Below, one piece after another: positions 1-35,317 of a DNA stretch of 35,392 bases. Both the position numbers and the translations under genes were made by a program. Positions within the stretch are counted from its first letter, which is position 1; the number at the start of each line of letters is the position of its first letter. This DNA is from Nitrospirota bacterium (GTDB lineage Bacteria > Nitrospirota > Nitrospiria > Nitrospirales > Nitrospiraceae). The notes beneath the pieces are model-generated. The model worked only from the letters and a program-made list of their open reading frames with translations, ran no database searches and had not been told where the DNA came from. Location of the stretch: NCBI GenBank assembly GCA_030682135.1, contig JAUXQT010000018.1, positions 1 to 35,392 on the forward strand. The letters run 5' to 3'.

Positions 1-964
1 TGAGGAGGAGATTGAGCAGGACCTGCTTGATCTGTTGTCGATCCAGCATGACACGAGGCAGGTCAGACGCCAACTCTTTTTCAATCTTGATCCCACGGCT
101 GTCCGCCTTCACGTCGATGAAATAGAGACAGGAGGCGACAATATCGTTGAAATCCTCGTCCGTCAGCTTGGGTTCCATGTATCGGGCGTAGTCGAGAATT
201 TCCTGGATCAATCGCTCGATCCGATACACATCGTCGAGCACGACTTTGCTGAATTCCTGAATAAATTGCGGGTCGTCTTTTCGTTCAGGCGCCAGCTGGA
301 TAAAGGTTTTAATCGAGGTGAGGGGATTTCTGATTTCATGAGCGAAGCCACCGGCGATCGTCTCAAGAGATTTCAGCCGATCGGTCCGCTTCATCAGTGT
401 GTGTGAGCGATGCAGATCTTCGTACAGCACAATGGTGTCGAGTGCATTGGTGGCCGTTTGTGACAGCGCGGCGAGCATGGCCTTGTCGAGCGCCTGTTCC
501 GTCGTGTGAGGGACTGCTGCGCCGAGGACGGTGAAGGCAATGAGACGGCTTTTGTTGAGATGCGGCACGATGCGGGAGGCCTGCATCGACTTCATCGCCC
601 TGCGCGCGTCGGCTCCGAAGTCGGTGCCTTGGAGGTCAGTGGCCGAGTCGGCCTGTACCATGATCTTGTTGGTGGTGAGCAGGTGATGAGGCAAGGGATG
701 GCTCACGGCCAACGTTGAAGGAATACCGGCTGGGGCATCCGAACCAACGATGTTGGCGCGGCGATAACATTCATGTTCGCGATCCAGGACGAAGAGCGCC
801 CCATGGGTCGTCGCTCCTGCGCGACAGAGCTCTTGGATAATGCGATTGCCGATGGTCGGCAGATCGGTCATCGTGCCTAGGTCTGACGCAAACTGTGTGA
901 CGATAGTTAAGAGCTCATTGGAGGACGACGCGGAGAAGTCGGTATTCGGTGGGCGTGACGTCAT
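1..964 (-). CDS. GAF-domain sensor histidine kinase, C-terminus beyond the window
   Basis: Reverse-strand reading from the ATG at 964 stays open to the window edge for about 321 codons, so the kinase is partial. Residues 20-170 look like a GAF sensory domain. An H-box with the order GGFAHEIRNPLTS lies near residue 207, where the His would be the autophosphorylation site. A dimerisation helix and the start of the ATPase domain (DRQQIKQVLLNLL) run into the edge. There is no membrane segment, so it is probably a cytoplasmic sensor. It lies 115 nt downstream of the large receiver/PAS/PilZ gene on the same strand, so the two may be co-transcribed. The signal sensed cannot be told. The family call is firm and the partner regulator is not visible. 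Confidence 0.88.
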   Translation of the reverse strand, partial: MTSRPPNTDFSASSSNELLTIVTQFASDLGTMTDLPTIGNRIIQELCRAGATTHGALFVLDREHECYRRANIVGSDAPAGIPSTLAVSHPLPHHLLTTNKIMVQADSATDLQGTDFGADARRAMKSMQASRIVPHLNKSRLIAFTVLGAAVPHTTEQALDKAMLAALSQTATNALDTIVLYEDLHRSHTLMKRTDRLKSLETIAGGFAHEIRNPLTSIKTFIQLAPERKDDPQFIQEFSKVVLDDVYRIERLIQEILDYARYMEPKLTDEDFNDIVASCLYFIDVKADSRGIKIEKELASDLPRVMLDRQQIKQVLLNLLL

Positions 965-1079: not shown

Positions 1080-4000
1080 TCAGCTAGCGGATTTACTTTT
1101 TTCGATGACGGCGAAGAGGCCTTGCCCGTCGAACGCAGGCAGGATGCGGGGCGTGCGGATGCCGGCTTGCTGGAGAAATGAGGTGAGCGACGGGCGGTCG
1201 AAGGTGTGCAGCAATCCATGCCGGATGGCCTCACGGAGCCGACCCAGGTAATGAAGCAGGATCTGGGGTTGCGGATTAAATTCATCCTGATTCGCGCTAT
1301 GCAGGTGGCGGCGATAGAGCACCGAGAGGTCGGTCTCAGGCTGGAAGACTGTGAGAACGAGGCGCCCCTTGGGGTGAAGCACGCGGTACAACTCACGGAT
1401 CGTGACCAGCGGAGAGGGAACGAATAACAGTGACAGATTGCAGACGATGCGATGAAGCGAGTCATTTTTGAAGGGCAGGCCCTGCGTCCAATCCGTATGT
1501 ACCCATTCAGCCGTCAGAGGCGGGTGGATGGTGAGCGTGCCTGCGAAGTCACTGTCGAGTTCCCGATGCAACGCACGAAGACTCTGTCGTGCCTGCGTCA
1601 GCGATTCGTGAGAATGCCCCAAGCCGATGACATGAACGGGACGTTCCGGACTCCATCCGCGCTGGCGTGAGCGGTAGGCTTGGTTCACCATTGTGGCTCG
1701 GACTAAATCGCCATGGCCGACCCCCACGTCCATGAGCATGGAGCCCGGTTCTAGCGGGCTGAGCAGCCGGTAGAGGTCGTCCAAGAGCTTCCAGTATTCG
1801 TGCAGATTCCCCAGCTGGGTCAGCTGCTGCAGGTGTGCGACCCTCAGGGCTTCGCGCGTAATCTGCGAAAGGTTGTGGCGAAGACGGGTACGTTCCAGCT
1901 CGATGCGTTGTTGACGGGCCAGCATGCCGCGGGCCTGTAGGCTGAATTCAGCCGAAACGGCTGGCAGCGAGATGGCGGTTGCGATCTGCTCCAGGATCTG
2001 TCGGAAGGCCAGCGGGTGTTGCTCATTGAGTGGGAGCTCCTGGCCGGTCAGCGGAGTGGGAACCGTTGCGAGGCGGGTATGGGCTCCCAACGCCGTGAGA
2101 AATGCCTGCGGGAGATCCGCCGGAGGCAGGGGCCCGAAGGGAGGGCCAGGAATCGTGAGAATGGCCGATGGTGAACGAAGGAGGCGCAGATCCGCAAGTG
2201 TGGAGGCGAGGTCTGTGAAGTGGCCTGCCACGATATCGCCGACAAAGCGATCGATATTGACGTTGAGACCGAGCAGGTTGGCGATGCCACGCCGGAGTCC
2301 GTATCGGTGGTCGGCCACGAGATCATGGCCATGGACCGACATCAGCATGGCCTGAATATCGACAACCGGATTGATCAGGAGGAGGAGATCGAGGGGGCGT
2401 GATTGTATCGCCGTCTTGAGTGCGACCCGCGCAGACAGATCGCTGGCCATCACGATTAGAGGCGCGGTGGGCCAGGTATGTTGCACAAATTCCACGACTT
2501 TCAGGAGGTCGGCTTGCATGCTCCGTAACGTCGTCTGTTGCAGCTCGCCGTCGCTGAGCCCGACATGATTGGTGTGGTCGTACCGCAAGACCCGGAGCCG
2601 GTGGTGTGCGAGGTAGTAGGACAAGGTGCTGGCATCCAACGAGGTCTGGCCGTAGCCGGGAGCGATAATGACGACCGGTGTGTTCGGTGCGAGTGACGGG
2701 CGCAGATGGTCGTCGGTGATCATGATCGCCTGGCCGCGTGGATTCCGGCATTCTCGCGGAATACTGATGACCGACGGTTGTTGCGAGGAGGAATCAGGCT
2801 CGCCAGGGGATGTCAGATGTTGCCGGACGACACGGTTCACTTCCCGCTCTGCATAGGGAGTGAGCCCGTGAAAACGGAGTCCGACCAGCAGGGCGGGGTT
2901 GGCGTCCTGGGCCGGAAACTCTTTTGGCGCAGTGCGATCCGGGGCTACCCAGATGATCTTTGCGGGCAGCGCGGAATCCGGGGCTCCCGGTTCATGGGCG
3001 CCAGGATGATGCGGGGTCTGTGCCGAGGCGAAGTGCAGTGTGGCGAGGCCCTGTAAGAGTTCAGGTGCCGCATTGAGATGAATGCAGACTCCGTCGCGGC
3101 TGAGGTTTGTCGTGAGCGCTCCAAGGCGATGTGTCTTGCCGGCCGGATCTGTGACATCCAGCCGGACAGGGAGCTGCAGGGCGACCCGGACGGCTTCGCG
3201 GGGGTTGTAGTCGCCCTGTTCGGTCTCGATCGGCTGATTCGGGAGATTCAGCGTGGCTGGCGGTTCTGCCGCAAGCAGCACTTCAAGGGAGAAGGGCAAC
3301 GCTTGCTCCTGAACCGCTTGGATCAGTGACCCCAAGACGGCAGCCTCTTCTCGTTTGGGGGTATCGAATTCGATGACAAGATGGGAAACCGGGGTTCCAG
3401 AAGAGAGCGTGATGGGCCGCTCTTCCGTCCTCCCTTGCAGTTCGAGGATTCCCACCGAAGTTTTCAGTACGACATAGGCATCTTGTGGCGCCACGCTGGG
3501 GAAGTCCTTGGGGAGCGTGATGCAGGTGCCGCCGAGGCTCAGATTCGTAATGGTGCCATCCCACGTCGTTGCTCCGACGGTAATCGTGGCCGGCAGGGCC
3601 GTTGTTGTTCGCGCGTTGTGCCGTCGTTCCTGTTGAGGCTTTCCCTTGGCGGTTGTCGGAGCAGGTGCCGCTGCGCCTCGCGTTGTTTCGGGAGCGCGTG
3701 AGGGAGAGGCGGCAGCGACGGTATCCGGCAGCGGGAATCTCTCGAACGGTGGTCGTGAAGCGGCTGGCAGACGGAGGATGATACGAAGGGGGCCCTGCAT
3801 CGGCGCCGACACATCCAAGATGCCACCGAGTTCGCGGACGAGTCGATACGACTCGAGGAGATCACTCGATGGAGATGCCGGAGCTGTGGATTCAGTCGGC
3901 CACACCATGTCCGATTCAAGCAGTTCCATTTCGACCTCGGTCGGCGGAGCGAGGGCAAAGAGGGCGGGGGCCTCTGCCGAGATGGCGGTCGACCCGACTG

Positions 4001-5267
4001 CGCGCGTGATGACGAGGATTCGATGCAGACGGCCGACGGTCAAGAGGTAGGTCTGCGCGTAGTGCAACAGTTGATGCGCGAGCGTCGCGAGCTGCATGCG
4101 ATTGCCGGCGAGGGGAGGAAGGTGAGCTGAAAGTTGCCGCATGATGCCTGCGCCATCCACGATCGAGGGGTCGGTGGACGTGAGCGCATCGTCAAGGACG
4201 TCGTTGATCGTATGTCCTATCTCGACGGCTTCTCGCTCGTGCAGAGCCTGTGTCAATTGTGCGCCAAGTTTCGTGGCTTCTGCGGCATGGCTGACGAGAG
4301 TTTCGGCTTGGTCGTCCAGCCGTGCGTCGCGAATGGAGGCAAGAAGTCGTTGGGAGTCGATCAATAGTGATGCCAGTGGTTCGTCCAGTTGTTGCGTCAA
4401 CAGTGTGGCTCGCTGGGCCAGCGCTAGCAATTCATCGGTACGCCGGAGTTCTTGGCGAAGTTGATGAATTGTGTCGTCTTGTTGCTTGGGTTGGGAGAGG
4501 TCTCGGATCAGTCCCACGGTGCCGAGAAATCGGCGGAGGGGGTCATAGAGTCCTCTGGCGTTCACTTCCGCTGTGAGGGTCAGTGTCCTGTTATCCTGCG
4601 TGGGCTTTCCTTGAAAGGTCAACTCGGCATGGCTGGTGCCTCGCGCTCCGGAACGGCGTTCGTTAAGGCGGTACCGGGCTACCGACTCCTGGTCCGGAGG
4701 CACGAGGGTGGTGTAGGGCAATCCGATGAGTTCATCGGGCGAGTAGCCCAAGAGCGTGACGATGCCAGGACTGACGGTCACAAAACAGCCGCTGGCATCC
4801 AATTCATAGACGATGTCGCTGAGTGACTCAATGAGCCGACGATAACGTTCCTGTGCATGGTCCAGTGCGATACGCAGGTCGCTTTTCTCGATGGCTTCTT
4901 TGGCACAGAAGAGCAGTTCGGTCAGAAAAGCTGGAGAAGTCTTTGCGAGGAAAAAATCGACGTCGGCCTTGAGCGCTTGAATCGCCGCGGTTGAATCGGT
5001 GCGGTCGCTCAGTAACAGAATGGCGGTGTACGGTGCGCGGCGCTTCATGTCTGTGGGAAGGGAGGTGCGGTCCCCGGCGAGGCATTGTTCGTCGATCAGG
5101 ATGAGGGTCCATTCCTGTGGGGACGTCCAGGCACGGGCTTCTTCGGCAGAATAGGCGACATCCACGCGGCAACCGGGAAAGAATCCGCGCAGACTGATGG
5201 TGACGAGTTTAATGGATTCAGCATGTTCGCTGACAATCAAGATGGTGATCGGCTCGCTCTGCGGCAT
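1080..5267 (-). CDS. Multidomain receiver-PAS-degenerate kinase-PilZ-PilZ-hydrolase-methyltransferase protein
   Basis: About 1395 residues in one open frame. The order is: receiver domain (about 7-121, Asp near 59 in LILIDE, Lys near 109); PAS domain (about 141-257); a kinase-like stretch (about 280-502) that has LDEPLASLL where the His-box should be and only a relic of the ATPase end (LVRELGGILDVS); PilZ 1 (about 547-655, RHNAR then NLSLGG); PilZ 2 (about 688-820, REAVR then NLSRDG); an alpha/beta hydrolase domain resembling LuxD acyltransferase (about 840-1100, Ser near 945 in SDLSAR); a linker helix; and a class I SAM methyltransferase (about 1172-1395, DVGVGHGD). Both PilZ domains keep the RxxxR and NxSxxG motifs that bind c-di-GMP in this family. 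An in-frame TTG lies just before the chosen ATG; AGGGA precedes it. Substrates of the catalytic domains are unknown. Confidence 0.85.
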   Translation of the reverse strand: MPQSEPITILIVSEHAESIKLVTISLRGFFPGCRVDVAYSAEEARAWTSPQEWTLILIDEQCLAGDRTSLPTDMKRRAPYTAILLLSDRTDSTAAIQALKADVDFFLAKTSPAFLTELLFCAKEAIEKSDLRIALDHAQERYRRLIESLSDIVYELDASGCFVTVSPGIVTLLGYSPDELIGLPYTTLVPPDQESVARYRLNERRSGARGTSHAELTFQGKPTQDNRTLTLTAEVNARGLYDPLRRFLGTVGLIRDLSQPKQQDDTIHQLRQELRRTDELLALAQRATLLTQQLDEPLASLLIDSQRLLASIRDARLDDQAETLVSHAAEATKLGAQLTQALHEREAVEIGHTINDVLDDALTSTDPSIVDGAGIMRQLSAHLPPLAGNRMQLATLAHQLLHYAQTYLLTVGRLHRILVITRAVGSTAISAEAPALFALAPPTEVEMELLESDMVWPTESTAPASPSSDLLESYRLVRELGGILDVSAPMQGPLRIILRLPAASRPPFERFPLPDTVAAASPSRAPETTRGAAAPAPTTAKGKPQQERRHNARTTTALPATITVGATTWDGTITNLSLGGTCITLPKDFPSVAPQDAYVVLKTSVGILELQGRTEERPITLSSGTPVSHLVIEFDTPKREEAAVLGSLIQAVQEQALPFSLEVLLAAEPPATLNLPNQPIETEQGDYNPREAVRVALQLPVRLDVTDPAGKTHRLGALTTNLSRDGVCIHLNAAPELLQGLATLHFASAQTPHHPGAHEPGAPDSALPAKIIWVAPDRTAPKEFPAQDANPALLVGLRFHGLTPYAEREVNRVVRQHLTSPGEPDSSSQQPSVISIPRECRNPRGQAIMITDDHLRPSLAPNTPVVIIAPGYGQTSLDASTLSYYLAHHRLRVLRYDHTNHVGLSDGELQQTTLRSMQADLLKVVEFVQHTWPTAPLIVMASDLSARVALKTAIQSRPLDLLLLINPVVDIQAMLMSVHGHDLVADHRYGLRRGIANLLGLNVNIDRFVGDIVAGHFTDLASTLADLRLLRSPSAILTIPGPPFGPLPPADLPQAFLTALGAHTRLATVPTPLTGQELPLNEQHPLAFRQILEQIATAISLPAVSAEFSLQARGMLARQQRIELERTRLRHNLSQITREALRVAHLQQLTQLGNLHEYWKLLDDLYRLLSPLEPGSMLMDVGVGHGDLVRATMVNQAYRSRQRGWSPERPVHVIGLGHSHESLTQARQSLRALHRELDSDFAGTLTIHPPLTAEWVHTDWTQGLPFKNDSLHRIVCNLSLLFVPSPLVTIRELYRVLHPKGRLVLTVFQPETDLSVLYRRHLHSANQDEFNPQPQILLHYLGRLREAIRHGLLHTFDRPSLTSFLQQAGIRTPRILPAFDGQGLFAVIEKSKSAS

Positions 5268-5613
5268 CAAGCTATCCCTATGCGTCTGAGAAACTCGAAC
5301 AAGTCCCGCCCCAGTGCGATCTCACCACGCCTGCTCATCTCGTGAATCTGAGACAAGCCTGCCCCCTGCGTTCCGTCCTGCAATGTATTCGGGGCACACC
5401 TCTGGGAGTGACGATGTGAATAACATAGGCGGAGGTGGGAAACCCAGTCTCCATGCGATGAAATGGGTTGTTTCTTTGGTAGGGGGGCGCCTCAGGGCCT
5501 TCCAGGGCGAACAAAATTGAACGGAATTCGAGGGGGAGTCGGTGAGGGTGCAGAAGAGAACGTCTCGGTACCCGCCACAGGTTATGCGGCGGGTACTGGG
5601 GGATGCATCGTTG
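5268..5613. other. Intergenic stretch without a gene
   Basis: This 346-nt gap separates two minus-strand genes. It should hold the promoter of the large multidomain gene at its left side and the transcript end of the copper-protein gene at its right side. Apart from the hairpin at 5568-5596 I see no convincing RNA, operator or small gene. Short open frames here have no recognisable sequence. Confidence 0.5.
5568..5596 (-). terminator. Hairpin downstream of the copper-protein gene
   Basis: GTACCCGCC at 5568-5576 pairs perfectly with GGCGGGTAC at 5588-5596, a 9-bp stem with an 11-nt loop, 17 nt past the stop of the minus-strand gene ending at 5614. No clear U-run follows on the minus strand. 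It may be a weak intrinsic terminator or a 3' stabilising hairpin. Confidence 0.45.
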
Positions 5614-6615
5614 TTATTTGGTAAGAGAAGTGTGGCCTGTTGCGGGACAGGCGCCAGGGGTCATGTAGAGCAAAGAGTTTCCCATCCCATGTTGAGCTGT
5701 GTCTTTCTGCAAGGGATGGTGATGGACCATGACCATTTCATAGTCATCGGCCTTGGTGACGGGAAACCCCTGAGGATCTTTATAGACTTGATGCGGCTGA
5801 AACTCGAGAAACGTTCCGTCCTGAGTGACGTCGGGAACTGTCCTCAGCAGAGTCTGTTTCTTCGTGATGTTGTCCAGTCCGATCATGAGGAGTTCGTCAT
5901 GCCCGTGGGGGTAGGCGAACTTCACACAGCCATCCATCCTGAACTTGAGCGGCGCCTTGTGGACCTGGACTCCGGTCGTGATCTCAATCCCTTCATCTGT
6001 CTGGTCCGGACCTCGCTGGGAGAATTTGCTGAAACAGACAATATTGACACCCACCTGGTACACGTCCATGTCTTTGATGGGGGCGCCTTCGGGCGCCATA
6101 TACATGGTGAAGCTGGCCATCACATCCTTGGTGATCGGCGCGCCATGATAAAAGGCGACAATCGACATGAGGTGATCGTCCTTGGCAAGTTTGACTCCGT
6201 AGCCGTCAGGGAAACGCGTCTCGGTCATTTCCAGCCCTGCGCCCGCGAAGAACAAGGGTTCGCCTTCGCAGGAGACGCTTGGCTTGCTGTTGTTGAGCAT
6301 CAGGACGTGATGGAGAAAGTTCTTGGGGAGGGGTTTCCCCTCTTTGGTGAAGACGGCCGTTTTGTACCCCACCATATACATATCTTTGGGCAGCTGAAAG
6401 TGATGTTTAGGCATCGAAGCCGCCAGGTCTCCGTCGTGACCGGCCGGTAGATCGATGGGACCGAATGTGAGTGTGACGGTATTGGTCCCGTAGGTCACGG
6501 TCGTCGTGGTCTGGTTGGACAGGGTCGGGACTGCATGATGGTCGTGGCCGCCGTCTGCAAGGACCGTGGTGACCGAACAGATGACGGCGAACAGTGTGAG
6601 CAATGCCTGACGCAT
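5614..6615 (-). CDS. Exported PHM-like (copper type II monooxygenase fold) protein
   Basis: The start is the ATG at 6615, preceded by GGGAGG at good spacing and opening a clear signal peptide (MRQALLTLFAVICSVTTVLA). The 333-residue product is His- and Met-rich. It has HH at 102-103 in FLHHVLML, His157 in AFYHG, HGH at 237-239, HHH at 298-300 and Met at 311 and 318. This order (HH, single His, HxH, Met) resembles the copper ligands of peptidylglycine alpha-hydroxylating monooxygenase and related two-domain jelly-roll proteins. The product would be periplasmic. Substrate and activity are unknown, and a purely copper-binding role is possible. The DUF4440-type gene lies 77 nt upstream on the same strand, so the two may be co-transcribed. 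Confidence 0.6.
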   Translation of the reverse strand: MRQALLTLFAVICSVTTVLADGGHDHHAVPTLSNQTTTTVTYGTNTVTLTFGPIDLPAGHDGDLAASMPKHHFQLPKDMYMVGYKTAVFTKEGKPLPKNFLHHVLMLNNSKPSVSCEGEPLFFAGAGLEMTETRFPDGYGVKLAKDDHLMSIVAFYHGAPITKDVMASFTMYMAPEGAPIKDMDVYQVGVNIVCFSKFSQRGPDQTDEGIEITTGVQVHKAPLKFRMDGCVKFAYPHGHDELLMIGLDNITKKQTLLRTVPDVTQDGTFLEFQPHQVYKDPQGFPVTKADDYEMVMVHHHPLQKDTAQHGMGNSLLYMTPGACPATGHTSLTK

Positions 6616-6692
6616 AGAGCCTCCCAAGAAAAAGAAATGGTCGCGCGAGCCTTTGCGGCGACGTTCGAACGTCTGTGTCTGGCGCGCAGATG

Positions 6693-7580
6693 TCATCTGG
6701 TCGAAGGCGGCGGGGTCAGACGTTTCCAGACATAGGTTCCGCCATGTTCGCGAGGGGGTATGTTCTTTTGTGTGCCGACTCGTGAGTACCACCATACGCC
6801 TTTGGCTTGGCGGCCATCCTCTGAGAGCAACACCTCAAAGCCCCCTTCACGATCGTTGCCAGTCTGAAGCCAGGTGCCTTGCCACAGTCGGTCCGCATAC
6901 TTAGTCGTGGTGAAGCGGCCCTCATGCTGGGTGTAGGGTCCGTTGCCGGCCTTATCCAGCGTGGCTTTGTAGCTCTTGTTGTCTTCGACTTCCAGGATAT
7001 CCCATTCCCCGCTCAAGTCGGGGGCCACCGCCGGGCTGTTCGATGTCGCCACTGCCTTGGGTGCCGAAGATTTTGGCCGATCGTCGACGGGCATCGCGCC
7101 GCTGGCATTGCGAAGGGATTCATGCCAGGAGAGGAGGATCCACTGGCCGTTTCGACGCTCCAGCACTCCGGTCTCTCGCAACGGCAGCACGGCTCGTTGC
7201 TGGTCCGCTCCATGTCCGAGGATGCGCACATAATCCAGTTCCATGGTGTACCAGCCGATATCGCCCTTCGACCAGACCTTGAGTTCGGAGATGGGAAGGT
7301 CGAGCGATGCGACTTTGGCGAACTCTTCCTTGATGTCCCGTTCCAACTCCGCCCACCCCACATATTTCCGTCCACCGATGGTGTAGCTGGTGATGTCGGC
7401 GTCGTGCGCCATCAGTCTGGACATTCCGGGCAAATCTTTCTCGGCATTGGCGCGCACGAGCGTACGGACTGCTGTTTCGAGCGCGGCGTTGTCCGATGTG
7501 GCGCCCACAGCGGCGGGAACCCAGCAGGCACTTCCAATGGTCATATAGACGATGAGACGAACCAGTGCGGACACTTGCAT
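6693..7580 (-). CDS. Exported NTF2-like (SnoaL/DUF4440-type) protein
   Basis: 295 residues. A signal peptide covers about 1-27 (hydrophobic LIVYMTIGSACWVPAAVGA). Residues about 32-155 form an NTF2-like alpha-plus-beta cone domain, with helix ALETAVRTLVRANAEKDL, the region ITSYTIGGRKYVGW and strands ending WILLSWHESL. A Ser/Ala/Pro linker leads to a second beta-rich domain (about 185-288) beginning SGEWDILEVEDN that I do not recognise. NTF2-like domains of this group serve as small enzymes or ligand-binding modules, so no reaction can be assigned. GGAG precedes the ATG at 7580. It is probably transcribed with the downstream copper-protein gene. Confidence 0.65.
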   Translation of the reverse strand: MQVSALVRLIVYMTIGSACWVPAAVGATSDNAALETAVRTLVRANAEKDLPGMSRLMAHDADITSYTIGGRKYVGWAELERDIKEEFAKVASLDLPISELKVWSKGDIGWYTMELDYVRILGHGADQQRAVLPLRETGVLERRNGQWILLSWHESLRNASGAMPVDDRPKSSAPKAVATSNSPAVAPDLSGEWDILEVEDNKSYKATLDKAGNGPYTQHEGRFTTTKYADRLWQGTWLQTGNDREGGFEVLLSEDGRQAKGVWWYSRVGTQKNIPPREHGGTYVWKRLTPPPSTR

Positions 7581-7673
7581 GATGATTCTCCAGTCGGGTT
7601 CACAAGGGAAACGGGAGGGAAGATTGTCTGGCTAGAGGTTGAAGCTACAGGGCCGATAGAAACTTGTCAATGT

Positions 7674-8450
7674 TTACGTTCCTGTTGTGGGCGGCATGCA
7701 GGCCACAACGATGACAGTTACATTATCGATTCCCCCTCGGCTCAGGGCCTGCTCGATCAGGTCGTGGCAGGCGCGCTGGGGATCCCCGTTGGCGCGAGAA
7801 AGGATCAAGGCGATGGCGGCGTCCTCCAACATTTTCGTGAGCCCGTCGCTGCAGAGCACAAGTAGATCGTGCGGCGCGACGGGTATCGAGGTCAGCTCCG
7901 GTTGCATGTTGACGCCCATTCCTAGGCCTTTGGTCAGGACATGCCGCTCAGGATGGACGAGCGCCGTAGCCGCATCGATCAAGCCGTGTTGCACAAGCGT
8001 CTCGACAAGGGTGTGATCGAGGGTCAACTGCGTGAGTTGTCCCGTCCGGTAGAGATAGGCGCGGCTATCTCCCAAATGGGCGAGGTGGGCGATTGGCGTC
8101 GATGTCGGTGTGATGGCCAAGGCGACGAACGTCGTGCCCATTCCTTGTAAGGCGGGCTTCGACCGCATGAGCTCATGGATTTGCCGGTTGGCGCTCGTCG
8201 CGAGGTCTGACAGAAACTCTGGGGCGGCATGTGGGTGCTCTGAGAGCCAGGCCGTTTGTTCGCGAGCCCGTTGTGTGGCCACAGTCACGGCGGTATGGGC
8301 CGCGAGATCTCCTGCCGGATGACTGCTCATTCCATCGGCCACGATCCAGACACCGCAATCATTCAGGAGGGCCAGCGCATCCTGGTTCGAGGTCCGAACA
8401 GACCCCGTCTCAGTTCGACCGACCCCGATCCATGGCTGAGGTTCTGTCAC
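7674..8450 (-). CDS. PP2C-family serine/threonine phosphatase
   Basis: 258 residues with the PP2C metal-binding motifs in order: VRTSNQD, VADGMSSH, GMGTTFVAL, HLGDSRAYLYR, LLVLCSDGLTKML and GGIDNVT. The acidic residues that hold the two Mn/Mg ions are present. It should dephosphorylate phospho-Ser/Thr proteins in the cytoplasm, opposing a Hanks-type kinase not seen here. I chose the GTG at 8450 because it overlaps the stop of the upstream exonuclease gene as GTGA, the classic layout of translational coupling. A longer frame upstream exists but only reads the exonuclease gene out of frame. The length fits the small bacterial Stp/PrpC type without extra domains. Confidence 0.9.
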   Translation of the reverse strand: MTEPQPWIGVGRTETGSVRTSNQDALALLNDCGVWIVADGMSSHPAGDLAAHTAVTVATQRAREQTAWLSEHPHAAPEFLSDLATSANRQIHELMRSKPALQGMGTTFVALAITPTSTPIAHLAHLGDSRAYLYRTGQLTQLTLDHTLVETLVQHGLIDAATALVHPERHVLTKGLGMGVNMQPELTSIPVAPHDLLVLCSDGLTKMLEDAAIALILSRANGDPQRACHDLIEQALSRGGIDNVTVIVVACMPPTTGT

Positions 8451-9253
8451 GGAGCGACCTCGGCAGGTTCTTGGAGACGGTTCGGCGGGAATCCCAAGGA
8501 AGCCGGGCCGAACGTTGCGACCATCTGGTCGTAGAGGATGGCTGCAAGCGGTTCCAGGTTGATGGTATCGGCTGCGTTGTATCGCAGCAAGAGATTGCGC
8601 GCGGCCGCATCTCCAGCGCACCATTGGTGCCAGAGGCGAACCGCTTCCCATCCGTCGAGTCCCACCACATCGGTCTCGCGCGCAATCTGCAATTCCTGTT
8701 CGATGTGTTTTAGCCCGCCCTGCATGCCGAGCCGGCGCGCGGCAAAACAGAGATCGAAGTGCGGCTTTTTGAAATTCAACCGGGGGAACTTGGCCTGCAA
8801 ATAGGGAATGTCGAACCCGCTGCCGAAGAACGTAATGAAGAGGTCGGTCTGTTCCAGCTCTGCATGCAAGCGGTCTTCTGTGAGCGTTTCCCCACGGACC
8901 AGGCTCGTCATCAGTCCGTTGCGATAGAGGCCGACGACCGTCACGTGCCCTTCGCGCGCCGACAGCCCTGTCGTTTCGATGTCGAGATAGAGTGTCCGCG
9001 GGCGAAACGTGTTGAAGAGGCGCCAATGCTCACGGCTCTTCAGGCAGGTGCCGAAGAAGGTCGCATCGCCTGCATCCAGATGCGTTTGCGCCTGGGTGAG
9101 TTCCCGGTCGTACCATTCTTTTTTAGCCGAAGAGATACCGGGCAGGGTTGCAGATCGTAGGAACGACCCCCAGTTCATAATGCCTTCCTGCCAGAGACGA
9201 CGCTCGGAGTTGTGGCCGATACCTTTGAGCAGGACGAAGGATGAGGTGAGCAT
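8447..9253 (-). CDS. RNase H-fold (DnaQ-like, YprB-type) exonuclease
   Basis: 268 residues from the ATG at 9253. The opening LTSSFVLLKGIGHNSERRLW matches the usual start of YprB-type proteins, so I prefer it to the GTG at 9283. Conserved acids are in place: DIETTGLS (DxE), FFGSGFDIPYLQ (Asp) and YNAADTINL (Asp), the DEDD set that binds two metals in DnaQ-like 3'-5' exonucleases. The protein lacks the C-terminal TPR half of some YprB homologues. The substrate is unknown. It is read with the PP2C phosphatase gene downstream (4-nt overlap). It is divergent from the cyclophilin-like gene at 9360. Confidence 0.82.
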   Translation of the reverse strand: MLTSSFVLLKGIGHNSERRLWQEGIMNWGSFLRSATLPGISSAKKEWYDRELTQAQTHLDAGDATFFGTCLKSREHWRLFNTFRPRTLYLDIETTGLSAREGHVTVVGLYRNGLMTSLVRGETLTEDRLHAELEQTDLFITFFGSGFDIPYLQAKFPRLNFKKPHFDLCFAARRLGMQGGLKHIEQELQIARETDVVGLDGWEAVRLWHQWCAGDAAARNLLLRYNAADTINLEPLAAILYDQMVATFGPASLGFPPNRLQEPAEVAP

Positions 9254-9359
9254 ATAATCGCAGGATTGTAGCCTTGATTTCACCGAATAAACAAGCTAAA
9301 GTCCGCGTCCTGAGCGGGTTTTCATCTTAGAGGCGCCGGGCGGCGCCGATTGGAACACA
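9254..9359. promoter_or_regulatory. Divergent intergenic region
   Basis: These 106 nt must hold promoters for the exonuclease/phosphatase pair (minus) and the cyclophilin-like/DUF507 set (plus). A GGCGCC-GGGC-GGCGCC hairpin (9332-9347) lies 13 nt before the plus-strand ATG and would fall in the leader. I cannot define -35 and -10 boxes with confidence. Confidence 0.35.
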
Positions 9360-9743
9360 ATGGCTGATTTCCCCAACAAAATTCGCATCACGGTCGGCTC
9401 GGTCCGGCTCGATGCGGAACTGAAGTCGACGAAGACCGCGTTGGAAGTGTACGGCGCCTTGCCGGTCGAGAGTCCGGTCAACACCTGGGGCGAAGAGTTC
9501 TACTTCAAGCTGGCCGGGGTCAAGGACCATCGAGAGACGGCGACGAACCAAGTAAAAGTCGGCGATGTCGCCTTCTGGGGCGCAGGACAAGTCCTGGCTA
9601 TTTTCTTCGGCCGGACCCCGATGAGCATGGGGCAGGATCCCGTCCCGGCCGACCGGGTCAATGTGATCGGCCGCATTGTCGGCGATGCCTCGGTCTTGCG
9701 TAACGTGATGGACCAGCCGAACATCCGAATCGAAAAAATCTAG
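9360..9743 (+). CDS. Cyclophilin-like fold protein (DUF369/TM1367 type)
   Basis: 127 residues. The pattern IRITVGSVRLDAEL, TALEVYGALPVESPVNTWG, VKVGDVAFWGAGQVLAIFFG, TPMSMG and PVNVIGRIVGD is that of the Cyclophil_like family, a small beta-barrel with the cyclophilin fold but without the classic PPIase active-site residues. The biochemical role of the family is not established. It stands 2 nt before the first DUF507 gene, so the two are surely co-transcribed. Confidence 0.8.
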   Translation: MADFPNKIRITVGSVRLDAELKSTKTALEVYGALPVESPVNTWGEEFYFKLAGVKDHRETATNQVKVGDVAFWGAGQVLAIFFGRTPMSMGQDPVPADRVNVIGRIVGDASVLRNVMDQPNIRIEKI

Positions 9744-9745
9744 CC

Positions 9746-10027
9746 ATGAGACTATCTAAAGAGCGCGTGCGTCACATCTCAGAGTCGGTGGCCGCCCGGC
9801 TACAGCAAGAGGGGCAACTGACGATTGTCGGGGATCGCAAGGCATTCGTCGAGCAGATCGACCATGCGATTCTCGAGGAACTGTCGGTCGAAGACCGCCT
9901 GAACGCCGAAGTACGGCAGATGCTGAAAGCCTACGAGCAAGACATCGAGCGAGGGCAAGTGGATTTTCAGCGGATGTTCACCATGGTTAAGACGAAGCTG
10001 GCGCGAGAGCGGGGCATTATCTTGTGA
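9746..10027 (+). CDS. DUF507 family protein (first copy)
   Basis: 93 residues, helical and charged: starts MRLSKERVRHISESVAARL and ends RMFTMVKTKLARERGIIL, the typical DUF507 pattern. It starts 2 nt after the cyclophilin-like stop. The family has no known function and often occurs as adjacent paralogues, as here. No signal peptide or membrane segment. Confidence 0.85.
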   Translation: MRLSKERVRHISESVAARLQQEGQLTIVGDRKAFVEQIDHAILEELSVEDRLNAEVRQMLKAYEQDIERGQVDFQRMFTMVKTKLARERGIIL

Positions 10028-13066: not shown

Positions 13067-13975
13067 ATGGCAATACCTGATTACCAATCAATCATGCTTC
13101 CACTTCTCCGTTTTGCTGCGGATGGAAATGAACATTCCCTCCGGGAAGCAATCGAGGGTTTGTCTGAAAAGTTCGGGCTTACAGAAATAGAAAAGAGTGA
13201 GCTATTGCCGAGCGGGCAACAACCAAGATTCGATAACCGTGTTGCCTGGTCGCGCTCTTATATGAGCAAGGCTGCTTTGTTAGAGTCCACGCGGCGAGGA
13301 CATTTCCGTATAACCCAACGCGGCCGAGAGGTTCTGTCCAAGAATCCCACCGAAATCAATGTGAGGTTTTTGGATCAATTCCCCGAGTTCGTAGAGTTCA
13401 GAGGAAAGCATCGAGAACGGGAAGAAATCACAGAAACTGCCGAAACCGAAACCCTTCAAACACCCGGTGAGCTTCTGGAGACCGCATATCAGAAACTGCG
13501 AGAAGATCTCACGGCTGAGCTTCTGAAATTTGTAAGGGAGTGTTCCCCGTCTTTCTTCGAGCGCCTCGTCATCGACGTCCTCGTGAAAATGGGTTATGGC
13601 GGTTCCCGAAAGGAAGCCGGTAAAGCCATTGGCCGCAGTGGCGATGAAGGTATTGACGGCATCATTAACGAAGATCGTCTTGGCCTCGATGTCATTTATG
13701 TTCAAGCCAAACGGTGGCAGGCTACGGTTGGGCGCCCTGAAATCCAGAAGTTCGCAGGAGCCCTGCAAGGACACCGTGCGAAAAAAGGAGTCTTCATCAC
13801 TACTTCCGACTTCAGTCGAGAAGCTGGGGAGTATGTGGCGAAAATCGATTCGAAGATTGTGCTTATAGATGGTGAGCAGCTAGCCCAACTCATGATTGAT
13901 CATAATGTTGGAGTTACTCCCATCACATCGTATGAAACGAAGAAAGTTGACAGTGATTACTTTATTGAAGGGTAG
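13067..13975 (+). CDS. mrr: Mrr-type restriction endonuclease
   Basis: 302 residues. The N-terminal winged-helix Mrr_N domain (about 1-90: YQSIMLPLLRFAADGNEHSLREA, ITQRGREVL) is followed by a coil-prone Glu/Thr-rich linker and a PD-(D/E)xK nuclease domain. That domain starts FFERLVIDVLVKMGYGG and has GDEGIDGII...VIYVQAKRW, whose Asp and QAK triad are the catalytic residues. Mrr is a type IV enzyme cutting DNA with methylated bases. The length is that of E. coli Mrr. It is flanked by a MITE and toxin-antitoxin remnants and is less GC-rich than the housekeeping genes nearby, which suggests acquisition by transfer. Confidence 0.92.
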   Translation: MAIPDYQSIMLPLLRFAADGNEHSLREAIEGLSEKFGLTEIEKSELLPSGQQPRFDNRVAWSRSYMSKAALLESTRRGHFRITQRGREVLSKNPTEINVRFLDQFPEFVEFRGKHREREEITETAETETLQTPGELLETAYQKLREDLTAELLKFVRECSPSFFERLVIDVLVKMGYGGSRKEAGKAIGRSGDEGIDGIINEDRLGLDVIYVQAKRWQATVGRPEIQKFAGALQGHRAKKGVFITTSDFSREAGEYVAKIDSKIVLIDGEQLAQLMIDHNVGVTPITSYETKKVDSDYFIEG

Positions 13976-30808: not shown

Positions 30809-30854
30809 AGCGTGGTCGCTTGTCACATTGGTGGAAAAAAGAGACAATGCATCG

Positions 30855-31394
30855 ATGGCTTCCGTGCGGATCAGATCAGGTCATGCTCCCCGATGCATTG
30901 TAATTGCCGGGCCGAACGGCGCTGGTAAGACCACCTTTGCCAGAGAGTTCCTTCCTCGTGAGGGGGGCGTGATACATTTTGTGAATGCCGACCTTATTGC
31001 GAGCGGACTTTCACCCCTTCGTCCGGAATTGGCTGCGAGACGTGGGGGTAGGCTTGTTCTCACAGAATTGAGCCGGTTGGTGAAGGCCCGCCAGGATTTT
31101 GCGTTTGAAAGTACCCTGAGCGGGCGGACATACCTTCCGTTGCTGAAACAGTGGAAGGCTAGCGGGTATCGTATCGAGCTGGTGTTTCTGTCGCTGCCCT
31201 CAGTGGAGCTGGCACTCCAGCGTATTGCGGCGCGTGTACGTCAGGGAGGGCATGATGTCCCGCGCGCTGATGTGGTGCGCCGTTTCAACAGAAGCTGGAG
31301 AAACTTTCAGCTCATCTATCGGGAGTTGGCAGACATGTGGGCGTTGTACGATAATGCTGGAGAGGCGCCACGATTACTGGAGGAAGGGCCATGA
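30855..31394 (+). CDS. Zeta-toxin-like P-loop kinase (COG4185 type)
   Basis: 179 residues from the ATG at 30855; GTG at 30831 and TTG at 30828 are in-frame alternatives. RCIVIAGPNGAGKTTFAREF is the Walker A (19-27). HFVNADLIASGL and FAFESTLSGRTYLPLLKQWK are the zeta/PezT-type substrate-side motifs, and the C-terminus has the Arg-rich LALQRIAARVRQGGHDVP lid with RRFNRSWRNF. Zeta toxins phosphorylate UDP-N-acetylglucosamine in the cytoplasm; this short relative is inferred to be a kinase of unknown substrate. Its stop overlaps the next start as ATGA. It is the main cargo of a T-flanked segment. Confidence 0.82.
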   Translation: MASVRIRSGHAPRCIVIAGPNGAGKTTFAREFLPREGGVIHFVNADLIASGLSPLRPELAARRGGRLVLTELSRLVKARQDFAFESTLSGRTYLPLLKQWKASGYRIELVFLSLPSVELALQRIAARVRQGGHDVPRADVVRRFNRSWRNFQLIYRELADMWALYDNAGEAPRLLEEGP

Positions 31395-31927: not shown

Positions 31928-32006
31928 CTCCGTTTGACGCGTGCAGTTGGAGACCAATCAGCCCGCCCTCCTAGGTGAGGTACGAGCAAGCTTGGAGGGA
32001 GCATTC
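31928..32006 (+). repeat. Right half of the split P hairpin plus tail
   Basis: CCGTTTGACGCGTGCAG corresponds to the right core of P (CTCGTTCGACGCGCGCAG). TTGGAGACCAATCAGCCC is the right arm, complementary to the left half at 30684. The tail TACGAGCAAGCTTGGAGG (about 31981-31998) also follows P3 and P7. Confidence 0.75.
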
Positions 32007-32010
32007 TTAT

Positions 32011-32293
32011 GCGGGTCCTGTCGCTGACCAGCCCAGCCGGCTTCGCACCCCGCCCGGTGTAGGAGGGAGGGGGTGGCCCGTTAGTCTCCTTTGCTCACGG
32101 AACGCGCGGCCTCAGAAGGCCCTCGTTCGACGCGCGCAGTTGGAGACCAATCGGCCCACCCCGTATAGGGAAGTACGAGCAGGCTTGGTGGGAGCATTGA
32201 AAGCGGCTGGGCTCCCAGGTCAGTGCCACCCGCTGGGAGATCATCTCGCCTTAGGGGGAGGGGAGAAACGAGCAAGCTTGGAAGGAGCATTGG
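32011..32293 (+). repeat. D2, right member of the long direct repeat, with P7
   Basis: It carries the same opening (GCGGGTCCTGTCGCTGACCA) and ending (CGAGCAAGCTTGGAAGGAGC) as D1 at 30321. A complete P hairpin (P7) is inside. A long open frame joins this DNA to the downstream nuclease gene, but the protein-like part begins only at 32404. Confidence 0.8.
32070..32162 (+). repeat. P-family hairpin, copy P7
   Basis: Arms 32070-32089 and 32142-32162 pair (GGGGTGG, TAGTCTCC against GGAGACCA, CCACCCC). Core with GGAACG/CGTTCGA and tip GGCCT-CAGA-AGGCC. The tail TACGAGCAGGCTTGGTGG follows. Confidence 0.88.
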
Positions 32294-32346
32294 ATGCTGC
32301 TTGGCGAGGGCCAAGCCGAGCTATCGCGGTCTACCTTTTTAGTGGG

Positions 32347-32375
32347 TTGACACTAGTGACATCGAGTCGTAGCCT
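32347..32375 (+). promoter_or_regulatory. Candidate promoter of the Gabija-like operon
   Basis: A perfect -35 TTGACA (32347-32352), a 17-nt spacer and a weak -10 TAGCCT (32370-32375), placing transcription start near 32382, about 22 nt before the ATG. The spacing is ideal but the -10 is poor, so this is a candidate only. No Shine-Dalgarno is seen before the ATG. Confidence 0.4.
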
Positions 32376-32403
32376 GTGCCAAACCATTTTGAGTGTTACA
32401 TCT

Positions 32404-34227
32404 ATGCGTATTTCTAGGATTCAGATTCAAAACTTTCGGAACTTCGCCAAGCTGGATGTGTCGCTTGGTACACATGCGGTCATTGTAGGTGAAAATAAAA
32501 TTGGTAAATCAAACCTACTGCACGCGCTACGTTTGATTCTTGACCCTTCATTGCCGGATTCTGCGCGAAGGCTACGGGAAGAAGACTTTTGGGATGGATT
32601 GGAGAGACCCCTCGGTAAGGATGATCGCATCACGATTTCTGTTGATGTGGCTGACTTTGAGGACGATGAGAGTCAGCTCGCACTTCTTTCAGAGCATTTG
32701 ATCAATCCAAAGCCAATGGTTTCTCAGCTTACTTATGTCTGGCAACCTATGCCAACTTTGCTTGGTGCCCCGAAGAAGGAGGCTGACTATGAATTTTTGG
32801 TGTATGGCGGGGTCCGACCAGAAAAGCAGATCAGCTATGAATTGCGTAGGCGTTTGCCGATGGAGCTAATGCCAGCACTTCGAGATTGTGAGGGCGATCT
32901 CGCTCGGTGGACACGCTCACCACTTCGTCCTTTGTTGGACAAGGCGGCAGCAGAGATTGATCGTGGTGAGCTTGAGAAGCTCGCAAAAGCTGTTGATAAA
33001 TCGACCGACAAGTTGACCGAGCTAGAAGAAGTGAAATCAGTTGCTCTATCTATCAAGGAGAAACTCATTGCAATGGTCGGTTCTGCGCAATCATTGGAAA
33101 CGGTTCTTCGTTTCTCCCCGACTGACTCAACCAAATTAGTTCGGGCACTTCGAATTTTCATCGATGGCGGTCGCCGTGGTATTGCTGACGCAAGTCTTGG
33201 TTCCGCCAATGTGCTGTACCTAGCGTTGAAGAGTTTGGAATATGACCTACTCGTCGAGGATGGAGACCGCGACCACACATTTCTGGCAATTGAGGAGCCT
33301 GAGGCACATCTCCATCCAACTCTCCAGAGGCTCATCTTTCGAAACTACCTACGGGTTCGTGGTGGGGAAGAAGGCAAGGGCGTGGATCATACTGCAACGA
33401 TTTTGATGACAACTCATTCGCCTCATATCGCCAGCGTAACGCCTCTGAAAGATTTTCTACTCTTGCGTTTGAATAAGGATGGTAATGCGACTGAGGCAGT
33501 ATCAACGGCTTGTATTGCTTTAGAGGATGATGAGGTGGCAGATCTCGAACGGTACATTGATGTAAATCGAGGTGAACTCCTCTTTGCCAAAGGCGTGATC
33601 TTAGTAGAGGGTGATGCCGAAAAGTTTCTAGTTCCCGTGTTGGCCAAAAACCAAGGCTACGACCTTGATGAGCTTGGCATTTCCGTCTGTTCGATTTCCG
33701 GGACTAACTTCTACCCATATCTCACGCTATTGGGCCCGAAAAATTTGGATATGCCTGTCGTGGCATTGACTGATTTTGATCCTCGAAAGCCGAAAGATGA
33801 TGGTACTCCCAAGAAGCCTCTTGGACCAGGGCGTGTTGTGAACGAGATGATGAGAGCATTGCTTGATGAGAAGACCTGCGAGGAGAATGATTTTGAGTCG
33901 TTGCTGAAGATGGCCCCGAAAAACGGAATATTCATGGGCTCACATACCTTTGAGGTGGACTTGTTCGAGTCCGGTCTAAAACATGAGTTGTCTAAAGCAA
34001 TGGATGATGTCATTGAAAATAAGGCAATGAAGGAAAGGGTAAATGGCTGGGCTAAAGATCTGAAATCTTTTGACGTCGAATCATTTCTCAATGACATCGA
34101 GCATGTGGGCAAAGGGCGAGTTGCCCAGCGTCTCGCTAGTGTCCTTGCGGAGTCTGGAACAAGTTCGTGCCCTAGCTATGTCGCTCATGCTCTTAAATAT
34201 GTCTGCGAAAAATGCAAGCGGGATTAA
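32404..34227 (+). CDS. gajA: GajA-like OLD-family nuclease (ATPase plus TOPRIM) of a Gabija-type system
   Basis: 607 residues. MRISRIQIQNFRNFAKLDVS and Walker A GENKIGKS (29-36) open an ABC-type ATPase. The signature/Walker B region reads LAIEEPEAHLHP near 293, followed by TTHSPHIASV. A TOPRIM nuclease domain begins ILVEGDAEKFLVP near 398 and has VALTDFDPRKP near 454, giving the Glu and DxD-type metal site. GajA of Gabija is 578 residues with the same order and cuts DNA when nucleotide pools fall in infection. The helicase gene overlaps its end by 29 nt. Less GC-rich than the housekeeping block, suggesting transfer. I start at 32404 because upstream codons only translate repeat DNA. Confidence 0.85.
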   Translation: MRISRIQIQNFRNFAKLDVSLGTHAVIVGENKIGKSNLLHALRLILDPSLPDSARRLREEDFWDGLERPLGKDDRITISVDVADFEDDESQLALLSEHLINPKPMVSQLTYVWQPMPTLLGAPKKEADYEFLVYGGVRPEKQISYELRRRLPMELMPALRDCEGDLARWTRSPLRPLLDKAAAEIDRGELEKLAKAVDKSTDKLTELEEVKSVALSIKEKLIAMVGSAQSLETVLRFSPTDSTKLVRALRIFIDGGRRGIADASLGSANVLYLALKSLEYDLLVEDGDRDHTFLAIEEPEAHLHPTLQRLIFRNYLRVRGGEEGKGVDHTATILMTTHSPHIASVTPLKDFLLLRLNKDGNATEAVSTACIALEDDEVADLERYIDVNRGELLFAKGVILVEGDAEKFLVPVLAKNQGYDLDELGISVCSISGTNFYPYLTLLGPKNLDMPVVALTDFDPRKPKDDGTPKKPLGPGRVVNEMMRALLDEKTCEENDFESLLKMAPKNGIFMGSHTFEVDLFESGLKHELSKAMDDVIENKAMKERVNGWAKDLKSFDVESFLNDIEHVGKGRVAQRLASVLAESGTSSCPSYVAHALKYVCEKCKRD

Positions 34228-35317
34228 ACCTGCATATATTTCGGCTGCAGAGCAGCTTCGCAAGAATGCCAAGCAGTGGCAGGCGTACAACTCTGTCGGT
34301 AACTGCGTTATTCTCGCCGGTCCTGGAAGTGGTAAGACAAAGACTCTTGCCATCAAGCTTGCCCGAATATTAGCTGAAGACGTCCAGCCGCCTCGTGGGA
34401 TTGCCTGTATTACGTACAATAATCAGTGCGCACGTGAACTGAGGCGCCGGTTGTCGAAATTGGGTGTCGAAGATGGCGGTAGAGTGTCGATCGGAACGCT
34501 TCACTCATTTTGCTTGCAGCACATCATTTCACCATATGCCCATCTCACACCATTGCCCAAGAAGTTTCCGATAAATGTGGCTTCAATAGACGAAGTCGAT
34601 CGGCTCCGCGATCAAGCTTTACGTATGACCATAGGTGACGAACGTTGGACGGCGAGATTTGACAGGTATCGGCGAGACCACTTGGATAGAAACACTCCTG
34701 AATGGAATTCTGATGATGGAGATGCCGCGCGTGCCATTGAACAATATGAATTTCTCCTGGACGAGCTAGGCCTGATTGATTTTGACGGAATGGTCTTAAT
34801 CGGACTGCATCTCGTTCAGAACTATAGCTGGATTCGAAAGGCGCTGGCTGCTCGTTTTTCAGTGCTGGTTGTTGACGAGTATCAAGATCTAGGACATGCC
34901 TTGGATCGAATCGTTCAAAGTCTTTGCTTTGATGCAGGAATAAGACTTGTGGCAGTCGGGGACCCAGATCAGTCCATCTATGGTTTCACTGGTGCGGATC
35001 CATCGCTCCTCCGTAATCTTGCCGCAAGGAAAGATGTCGAGATGGTGCAGCTGCAAATGAATTATCGTTGCGGGGCTGCGATCATCGAAGCATCAGAGGT
35101 CGCGCTTGGTGAGGAGCGTGGATTTGAGTCGGCAATAGATGAGCCAGGGGCCATATATTTTCATGAGCGGCCGAAAGGCAGTGAGGATCAGGCCGACTTC
35201 ATTTGTCGAACGCTCATACCTGAGGCGCTCAAACGTAGAGCAGGTCGCAAGCAGAGGTGGCTCCGGTTGGTTGGACAGCCTAGGCCATTTCTTAAGTGGT
35301 GCCTGGCGAATTACTGA
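34199..35317 (+). pseudogene. gajB: GajB-like UvrD/PcrA-family helicase, 3' end lost to an IS element
   Basis: The frame from the ATG at 34199 gives 372 residues, whereas GajB has about 494. Present are Walker A GPGSGKTKT (41-49), the Ia region ACITYNNQCARELRRRL, GTLHSFC, motif II VVDEYQDL (about 223-230), motif III GDPDQSIYGFTGA (about 253-265) and motif IV LQMNYR. Motifs V and VI and the 2B end are missing. The last 20 or so residues (from about 35258) no longer look like a helicase and are read from IS DNA. The helicase partner is therefore probably inactive, and with it the defence pair. The 29-nt overlap with gajA shows the original operon. Confidence 0.82.

Follow-up and report, generated by a model that had tools for sequence, protein, structure and literature searches.

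A long LuxD-like hydrolase-methyltransferase fusion protein of Nitrospirota that looks like an enzyme turned c-di-GMP-linked regulator

In a 35,392-nucleotide stretch of DNA from a Nitrospirota bacterium (positions 1 to 35,392 of contig JAUXQT010000018.1, assembly GCA_030682135.1; hereafter the window), a gene on the minus strand encodes a single 1395-residue chain joining a receiver (REC)-like domain, a PAS domain, a histidine-kinase relic, two PilZ domains, a LuxD-like alpha/beta-hydrolase and a class I S-adenosylmethionine (SAM) methyltransferase. This protein looks like the descendant of a working fatty-acyl hydrolase/methyltransferase that was paired with a membrane sensor kinase, and which now serves as a non-catalytic regulator rather than as an enzyme. 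At the level of sequence, it can be shown that in this lineage the loss of the hydrolase triad coincides with the carriage of the REC-PAS-pseudokinase-PilZ half and with the loss of the membrane sensor from the adjacent kinase. The first-pass annotation of the gene, which gave no strand, had instead pictured live catalytic ends, and had named loss of their catalytic residues as grounds for abandoning that picture; those residues are indeed lost.

The hydrolase illustrates this most clearly. Its LuxD-like assignment holds in sequence searches, and the best match of its modeled part in the Protein Data Bank (PDB) is LuxD itself (1tht; Foldseek E 1.8e-13; VIA-align Z 22.8, 279 residues aligned at 3.9 Å), consistent with a predicted LuxD-type fold; against the 420-bit cut-off of the NCBIfam LuxD equivalog, the protein scores 52 bits. 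Aligning LuxD genes from Photobacterium, Photodesmus, and Photorhabdus sets the positions of the Ser-Asp-His triad. The nucleophile position is occupied by Asp943 (numbered from the Met at ATG 5267), which the model fragment places in a turn joining strand 112-117 to helix 119-130; neither the acid expected beyond the next-to-last strand nor the His that should follow the last one is present. The Ser near 945, for which a His/Asp triad was to be sought, is Ser945 and sits two residues past the nucleophile position. In the structure model (10 sequences, mean predicted local distance difference test score 74), the loops where the acid and His were lost are weak, which is why the triad was assessed by alignment rather than by distances. 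All three residues are missing in every orthologue with the kinase relic, and the lost acid and His positions are free to vary (G/S/P/I/T and others) among triad-lost sequences.

Relatives across the phylum place this loss in an evolutionary context. The C-terminal half is found in 91 of 395 genomes, nearly always with both the hydrolase and the methyltransferase. In searches of named genomes, among the matches listed, the two occur together only in Nitrospirota, and the only good hydrolase-only matches are LuxD of luminous bacteria. Short forms of 547-1062 residues, ranging from a bare hydrolase-methyltransferase pair to PilZ-carrying versions, keep the Ser, Asp, and His, the GxGxG motif, and the acidic residue at the end of beta2. 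Their triad aligns exactly with that of LuxD, with which they share an AxSxx elbow, and their hydrolase is LuxD-like at E 1e-30 (PDB 1tht, E 1e-38). Long forms of about 1200-1430 residues include REC-PAS and no longer have the triad. In a maximum-likelihood tree, one branch divides triad-intact from triad-lost sequences (support 100/99).

The partner kinase follows the same division. The short forms are followed immediately by a sensor kinase of 706-1009 residues with HisKA_7TM, GAF, HisKA, and HATPase domains and 3-12 predicted transmembrane segments; downstream of the long forms, the kinase has 420-487 residues, intact His, N, and G boxes, 0-1 predicted transmembrane segments, and no membrane domain. 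Across the 70 loci where a kinase was detected, the membrane kinase is present at all 25 triad-intact loci and the kinase without a membrane domain at all 45 triad-lost loci, and the split holds within genomes carrying one copy of each type. The 25 are drawn from 29 triad-intact loci; of the other four, two run into a contig end, one carries a frameshift, and one (L101) has no kinase. Because the short relatives keep the triad and the SAM motif and adjoin a membrane kinase, their pairing suggests an acyl-signal synthase and its receptor. An earlier suggestion that the enzymes might act on a signal molecule is thereby revived, for these shorter relatives and not for the window protein.

The fusion itself is real and not recent, since about 20 of 32 congeneric genomes contain full-length colinear orthologues at 62-95 % identity, and further copies are cut by contig ends. 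The reading frame runs from the ATG at 5267 to a stop codon ending at 1080, and the domain order first assigned to it is borne out by Pfam, NCBIfam, and the orthologues. The start is backed by one orthologue with an in-frame stop immediately before MPQSEP and by the conservation, upstream, of a ribosome-site motif resembling AGGGAT. Every domain is under purifying selection: the ratio of nonsynonymous to synonymous substitution rates (dN/dS) is mostly 0.05-0.2 in the hydrolase and methyltransferase (0.07-0.28 in the hydrolase, as low as 0.02-0.17 in the methyltransferase) versus about 0.3-1.15 in the linker. As the most constrained parts of the protein, the dead hydrolase and the methyltransferase are not junk.

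Several observations weigh against a conversion from enzyme to regulator in step with the kinase. The correlation between triad and kinase is essentially one evolutionary transition: as the tree needs a single change, the locus counts record one event seen repeatedly, not 70 independent ones. Two divergent relatives that lost the triad differently, with Gly at the elbow (L086 and L087), have no adjacent kinase. One relative of 1187 residues (L089) is fused to REC-PAS with its triad intact, showing that fusion by itself did not inactivate the enzyme; another (L091) encodes REC-PAS-PilZ as a separate gene upstream, and with these two cases the fusion looks stepwise. That the short forms make a signal is deduced from domain logic and synteny, and the FabF-type ketosynthase that adjoins two short forms is limited to two genomes. 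Finally, the window methyltransferase by itself may still bind SAM, because its GxGxG motif is kept and its dN/dS is low. A candidate fusion of a short form with its 7TM kinase in a single 1641-residue frame (L092, genome G315, 4883-9808, plus strand) was rejected as evidence; its junction at the methyltransferase end reads out of frame, marking it as a frameshift.

One alternative turns on the methyltransferase. In fold comparison this domain resembles Rossmann methyltransferases (Coq5, RebM, and others), upholding its original assignment. Its SAM pocket is only partly complete, with motif I kept as DVGVGHG and the acidic ribose-binding residue at the end of beta2 replaced by Gly (VIGLG); many congeners have Glu here and the short forms have Asp, Gly being found in the window clade and others. 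One could suppose that the methyltransferase alone is alive and c-di-GMP-regulated, with the dead hydrolase serving as a substrate-docking module. Such a view would fit the strong constraint on this domain, the retained GxGxG, the full SAM motif persisting in several triad-lost relatives (L073, L074, L088), and a REC-PAS-PilZ-methyltransferase protein with an intact motif and no hydrolase (L093, genome G170, 4697-6913, minus strand). However, in addition to the missing beta2 acid, the motif is damaged at differing places in most triad-lost lineages, congeners included, to the point of a broken GxGxG in the congeners L027 and L030, and we consider this alternative unlikely.

A second alternative, which we likewise hold to be improbable, concerns the short relatives: these would be housekeeping lipid or cofactor enzymes, for example a BioC/BioH-like methyl-ester pair, with the kinase pairing reflecting control of that metabolism and the window protein a degenerate sensor of it. 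BioC is indeed among the weak methyltransferase matches of the short forms (3e-13, far below cut-off), and the five tested genomes contain no gene above the BioC cut-off. Yet the short-form hydrolase is LuxD-like without a BioH match, many methyltransferases in these genomes fit BioC better than this family does, and the gene adjoins a sensor kinase, with no biotin genes seen beside the family. An identity as a BioC/BioH fusion was dropped, finding no support above cut-offs.

The signaling half is also a mixture of retained and eroded features. The receiver keeps its phospho-acceptor Asp, Lys109, and Ser, and its Asp-Asp acid pocket has become Ser-Glu; in some orthologues, the Lys or the Ser/Thr is gone as well. 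A Pfam scan of the protein finds neither a HisKA nor a HATPase match in the kinase relic, which aligns in profile-profile comparison with the core of the neighboring true kinase, comprising the dimerization and histidine phosphotransfer (DHp) and ATPase domains (hhalign probability 98.8 %, E 7.5e-17). The His of HEIRNPL is replaced by Gln292 (QQLDEPL) and the N and G boxes are gone, placing it outside the histidine kinases and vindicating its initial description as a relic without the His-box. The intact ligand motifs of the protein are those of its two PilZ domains (Pfam 8e-13), as first noted: RHNAR/NLSLGG and REAVR/NLSRDG both match the RxxxR and NxSxxG pattern of predicted c-di-GMP receptors. 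A connection to c-di-GMP is supported by the intact motifs of the second PilZ domain together with an HD-GYP phosphodiesterase in the same operon. Of the proposal that phosphorylation and c-di-GMP tune the enzymes, the c-di-GMP link survives; the hydrolase has lost its triad, the methyltransferase its acidic beta2 residue, and the receiver its acidic Mg pocket.

The same evidence leaves the original notion of a multi-input enzyme, with an active acyl hydrolase/transferase and an active methyltransferase both tuned by phosphorylation and c-di-GMP, very improbable: all domains are recognizable, the PilZ motifs are intact, and both C-terminal domains are under strong purifying selection, but the hydrolase part is already contradicted by the absence of triad Ser, acid, and His in any relic-carrying orthologue, and the damage to the methyltransferase and to the receiver pocket adds to this. 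Hardly any weight can be given to a hydrolase with new chemistry using Asp943 as its nucleophile, in the style of haloalkane dehalogenases or epoxide hydrolases; the Asp is invariant in triad-lost sequences except L086 and L087, exceeding the expectation for neutral decay, but catalysis of that kind further requires a His base and an acid, and both positions vary freely here.

Our favored interpretation, to which we give about even credence, is that the window protein is a pseudo-synthase that has come to regulate the soluble kinase, with c-di-GMP and PAS as gates. The short forms would free an acyl chain and add a methyl group to it, or to a related product, and the resulting signal would be read by the membrane kinase, by analogy with PhcB/PhcS and their 3-hydroxy fatty-acid methyl esters. 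The window protein would make no product; rather, its dead LuxD/methyltransferase module may bind a ligand derived from an acyl compound or from SAM, or else a protein partner, while the second PilZ domain would bind c-di-GMP and PAS would detect an additional cue. The pseudo-DHp may then touch the soluble kinase and set the phospho-flow to the sigma54-type regulator and the HD-GYP enzyme, which would feed back on c-di-GMP. A bolder version, which we regard as possible but doubtful, is that Nitrospirota possess an undescribed acyl-signal system, made of a LuxD-like thioesterase-methyltransferase synthase and a 7TM-GAF kinase, and that in one lineage a synthase copy became a c-di-GMP-gated receptor inside the cell, responding to the same kind of molecule, so that the dead enzyme took over reception from the membrane kinase.

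Parallels with known systems are partial in each case. LuxD, the myristoyl-acyl carrier protein (ACP) thioesterase/acyltransferase of luminous bacteria (PF02273, NF052253), frees fatty acid from acyl-ACP. It is the best sequence and structure match, and the short forms share its triad; unlike LuxD, the window protein has Asp for Ser, lacks the acid and His, and is fused to methyltransferase and signaling domains, and neither luxC nor luxE was seen next to family members at the loci read. In the Phc system of Ralstonia (PMC11960443), methyl 3-hydroxy fatty acids are produced and perceived by PhcB and PhcS. The short forms resemble it as a methyltransferase gene adjoining a sensor kinase, possibly with a fatty-acid methyl-ester signal, a likeness of gene arrangement; the window protein, in contrast, is degenerate. 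PhcB is not known to carry a fused thioesterase, unlike the short forms. The Rpf/diffusible signal factor system (RpfC-RpfG) shares a kinase operon with a REC-HD-GYP c-di-GMP phosphodiesterase, but no RpfF crotonase-type synthase was seen in the operon, where a GAF-HisKA kinase instead stands beside the pseudo-LuxD. The PrsK/PrsR exosortase systems (TIGR02916/TIGR02915) likewise have a GAF-HisKA kinase beside an NtrC-type regulator, and the family kinases match TIGR02916 at 1e-30 to 1e-42; however, they reach 107-143 bits versus a 300-bit cut-off, the regulator 436 versus 502.6, and no exosortase genes were seen in the loci read. DivL is a pseudo-histidine kinase with a DHp-like core without the phospho-His, as in the window relic, which differs in its His-to-Gln change, its ATPase part without N and G boxes, and its placement between PAS and PilZ. 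Thus, pseudoenzymes and synthase/receptor pairs are already known; what is new is the way they are combined here, together with the simultaneous change in the partner kinase. A literature search of incomplete coverage found no description of the architecture, in line with the earlier remark that no characterized protein with this domain order was known to its author.

The features of the locus are collected in Table 1. The soluble kinase, cut by the window end, continues on a second contig of the same genome (C25); the two contigs share 141 identical bases at the window end, and C25 holds the remainder of the gene. The HD and HHExxDGxGYP motifs are intact in a congener's copy of the REC-HD-GYP protein (L095, 95.5 % identical). 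A candidate sigma54 promoter, the GG-N10-GC element TGGGACTGGGCTTGCT at -46 (window 5268-5313), is conserved and scores 10/12 in several congeners; the 9/12 of the window copy is matched by 14 % of shuffles, and the element is not claimed.

Table 1. Features of the pseudo-synthase gene and its neighborhood (window coordinates, or contig C25 where given)
Feature	Position	Strand	Basis or remark
Whole gene: REC-like/PAS/pseudokinase/PilZ/PilZ/pseudo-LuxD hydrolase/eroded methyltransferase	1080-5267	-	Open reading frame, Pfam, orthologues
Receiver-like domain, residues 5-118	4914-5255	-	Pfam Response_reg 1.9e-6, just below cut-off; alignments
PAS domain, residues 140-256	4500-4850	-	Pfam 2.8e-12; NCBIfam sensory_box 9.1e-13
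Histidine-kinase relic (DHp and ATPase), residues 270-504	3756-4460	-	hhalign to downstream kinase
PilZ1, residues 547-660	3288-3629	-	RxxxR and NxSxxG in window; Ser lost in some congeners
PilZ2, residues 688-830	2778-3206	-	RxxxR and NxSxxG; motifs invariant across genus
LuxD-like alpha/beta-hydrolase, residues 850-1105, triad lost	1953-2720	-	Pfam Acyl_transf_2 (LuxD) 2.2e-14; LuxD alignment; 1tht; most conserved part of protein
Asp943 at nucleophile-elbow position (ASDLS)	2439-2441	-	Alignment, model; Ser in LuxD and short relatives
Class I SAM methyltransferase, about residues 1160-1390	1098-1790	-	Pfam Methyltransf_11 6.9e-7, above cut-off
Adjacent soluble GAF-like/HisKA/HATPase kinase, first 321 residues, cut by contig end at base 2	2-964	-	Own-genome contig C25
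NtrC-type regulator	C25 469-1893		Operon continuation
REC-HD-GYP c-di-GMP phosphodiesterase	C25 2117-3256		Operon continuation
Upstream syntenic neighbor, 393 residues	5614-6795	-	No Pfam match; congener copy no NCBIfam match
Upstream syntenic neighbor, SnoaL-like domain	6693-7580	-	Synteny, domain search
Upstream syntenic neighbor, PP2C-type phosphatase	7674-8516	-	Synteny, domain search

Elsewhere in the window, all on the plus strand, are an Mrr-type type IV restriction endonuclease (13067-13975; Mrr_N and Mrr_cat), a protein with a Zeta-toxin-like P-loop kinase fold and no defense-family match (30828-31394), and a Gabija anti-phage pair consisting of GajA (31975-34227; PADLOC E 5e-222) and GajB (34070-35317; E 5e-145), the match of the latter ending about halfway along the profile, near the contig end.

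In Nitrospirales, the quorum sensing so far described relies on acyl-homoserine lactones (PMC12342949). If the acyl-signal interpretation is true, this order would have a second, acyl-derived signaling system with a clear synthase/receptor gene pair, which could be tested directly in cultivated carriers of the short forms. The window lineage offers a natural before-and-after case of an enzyme becoming a regulator, in which the partner kinase altered simultaneously and the regulator is tied to c-di-GMP via PilZ and HD-GYP.

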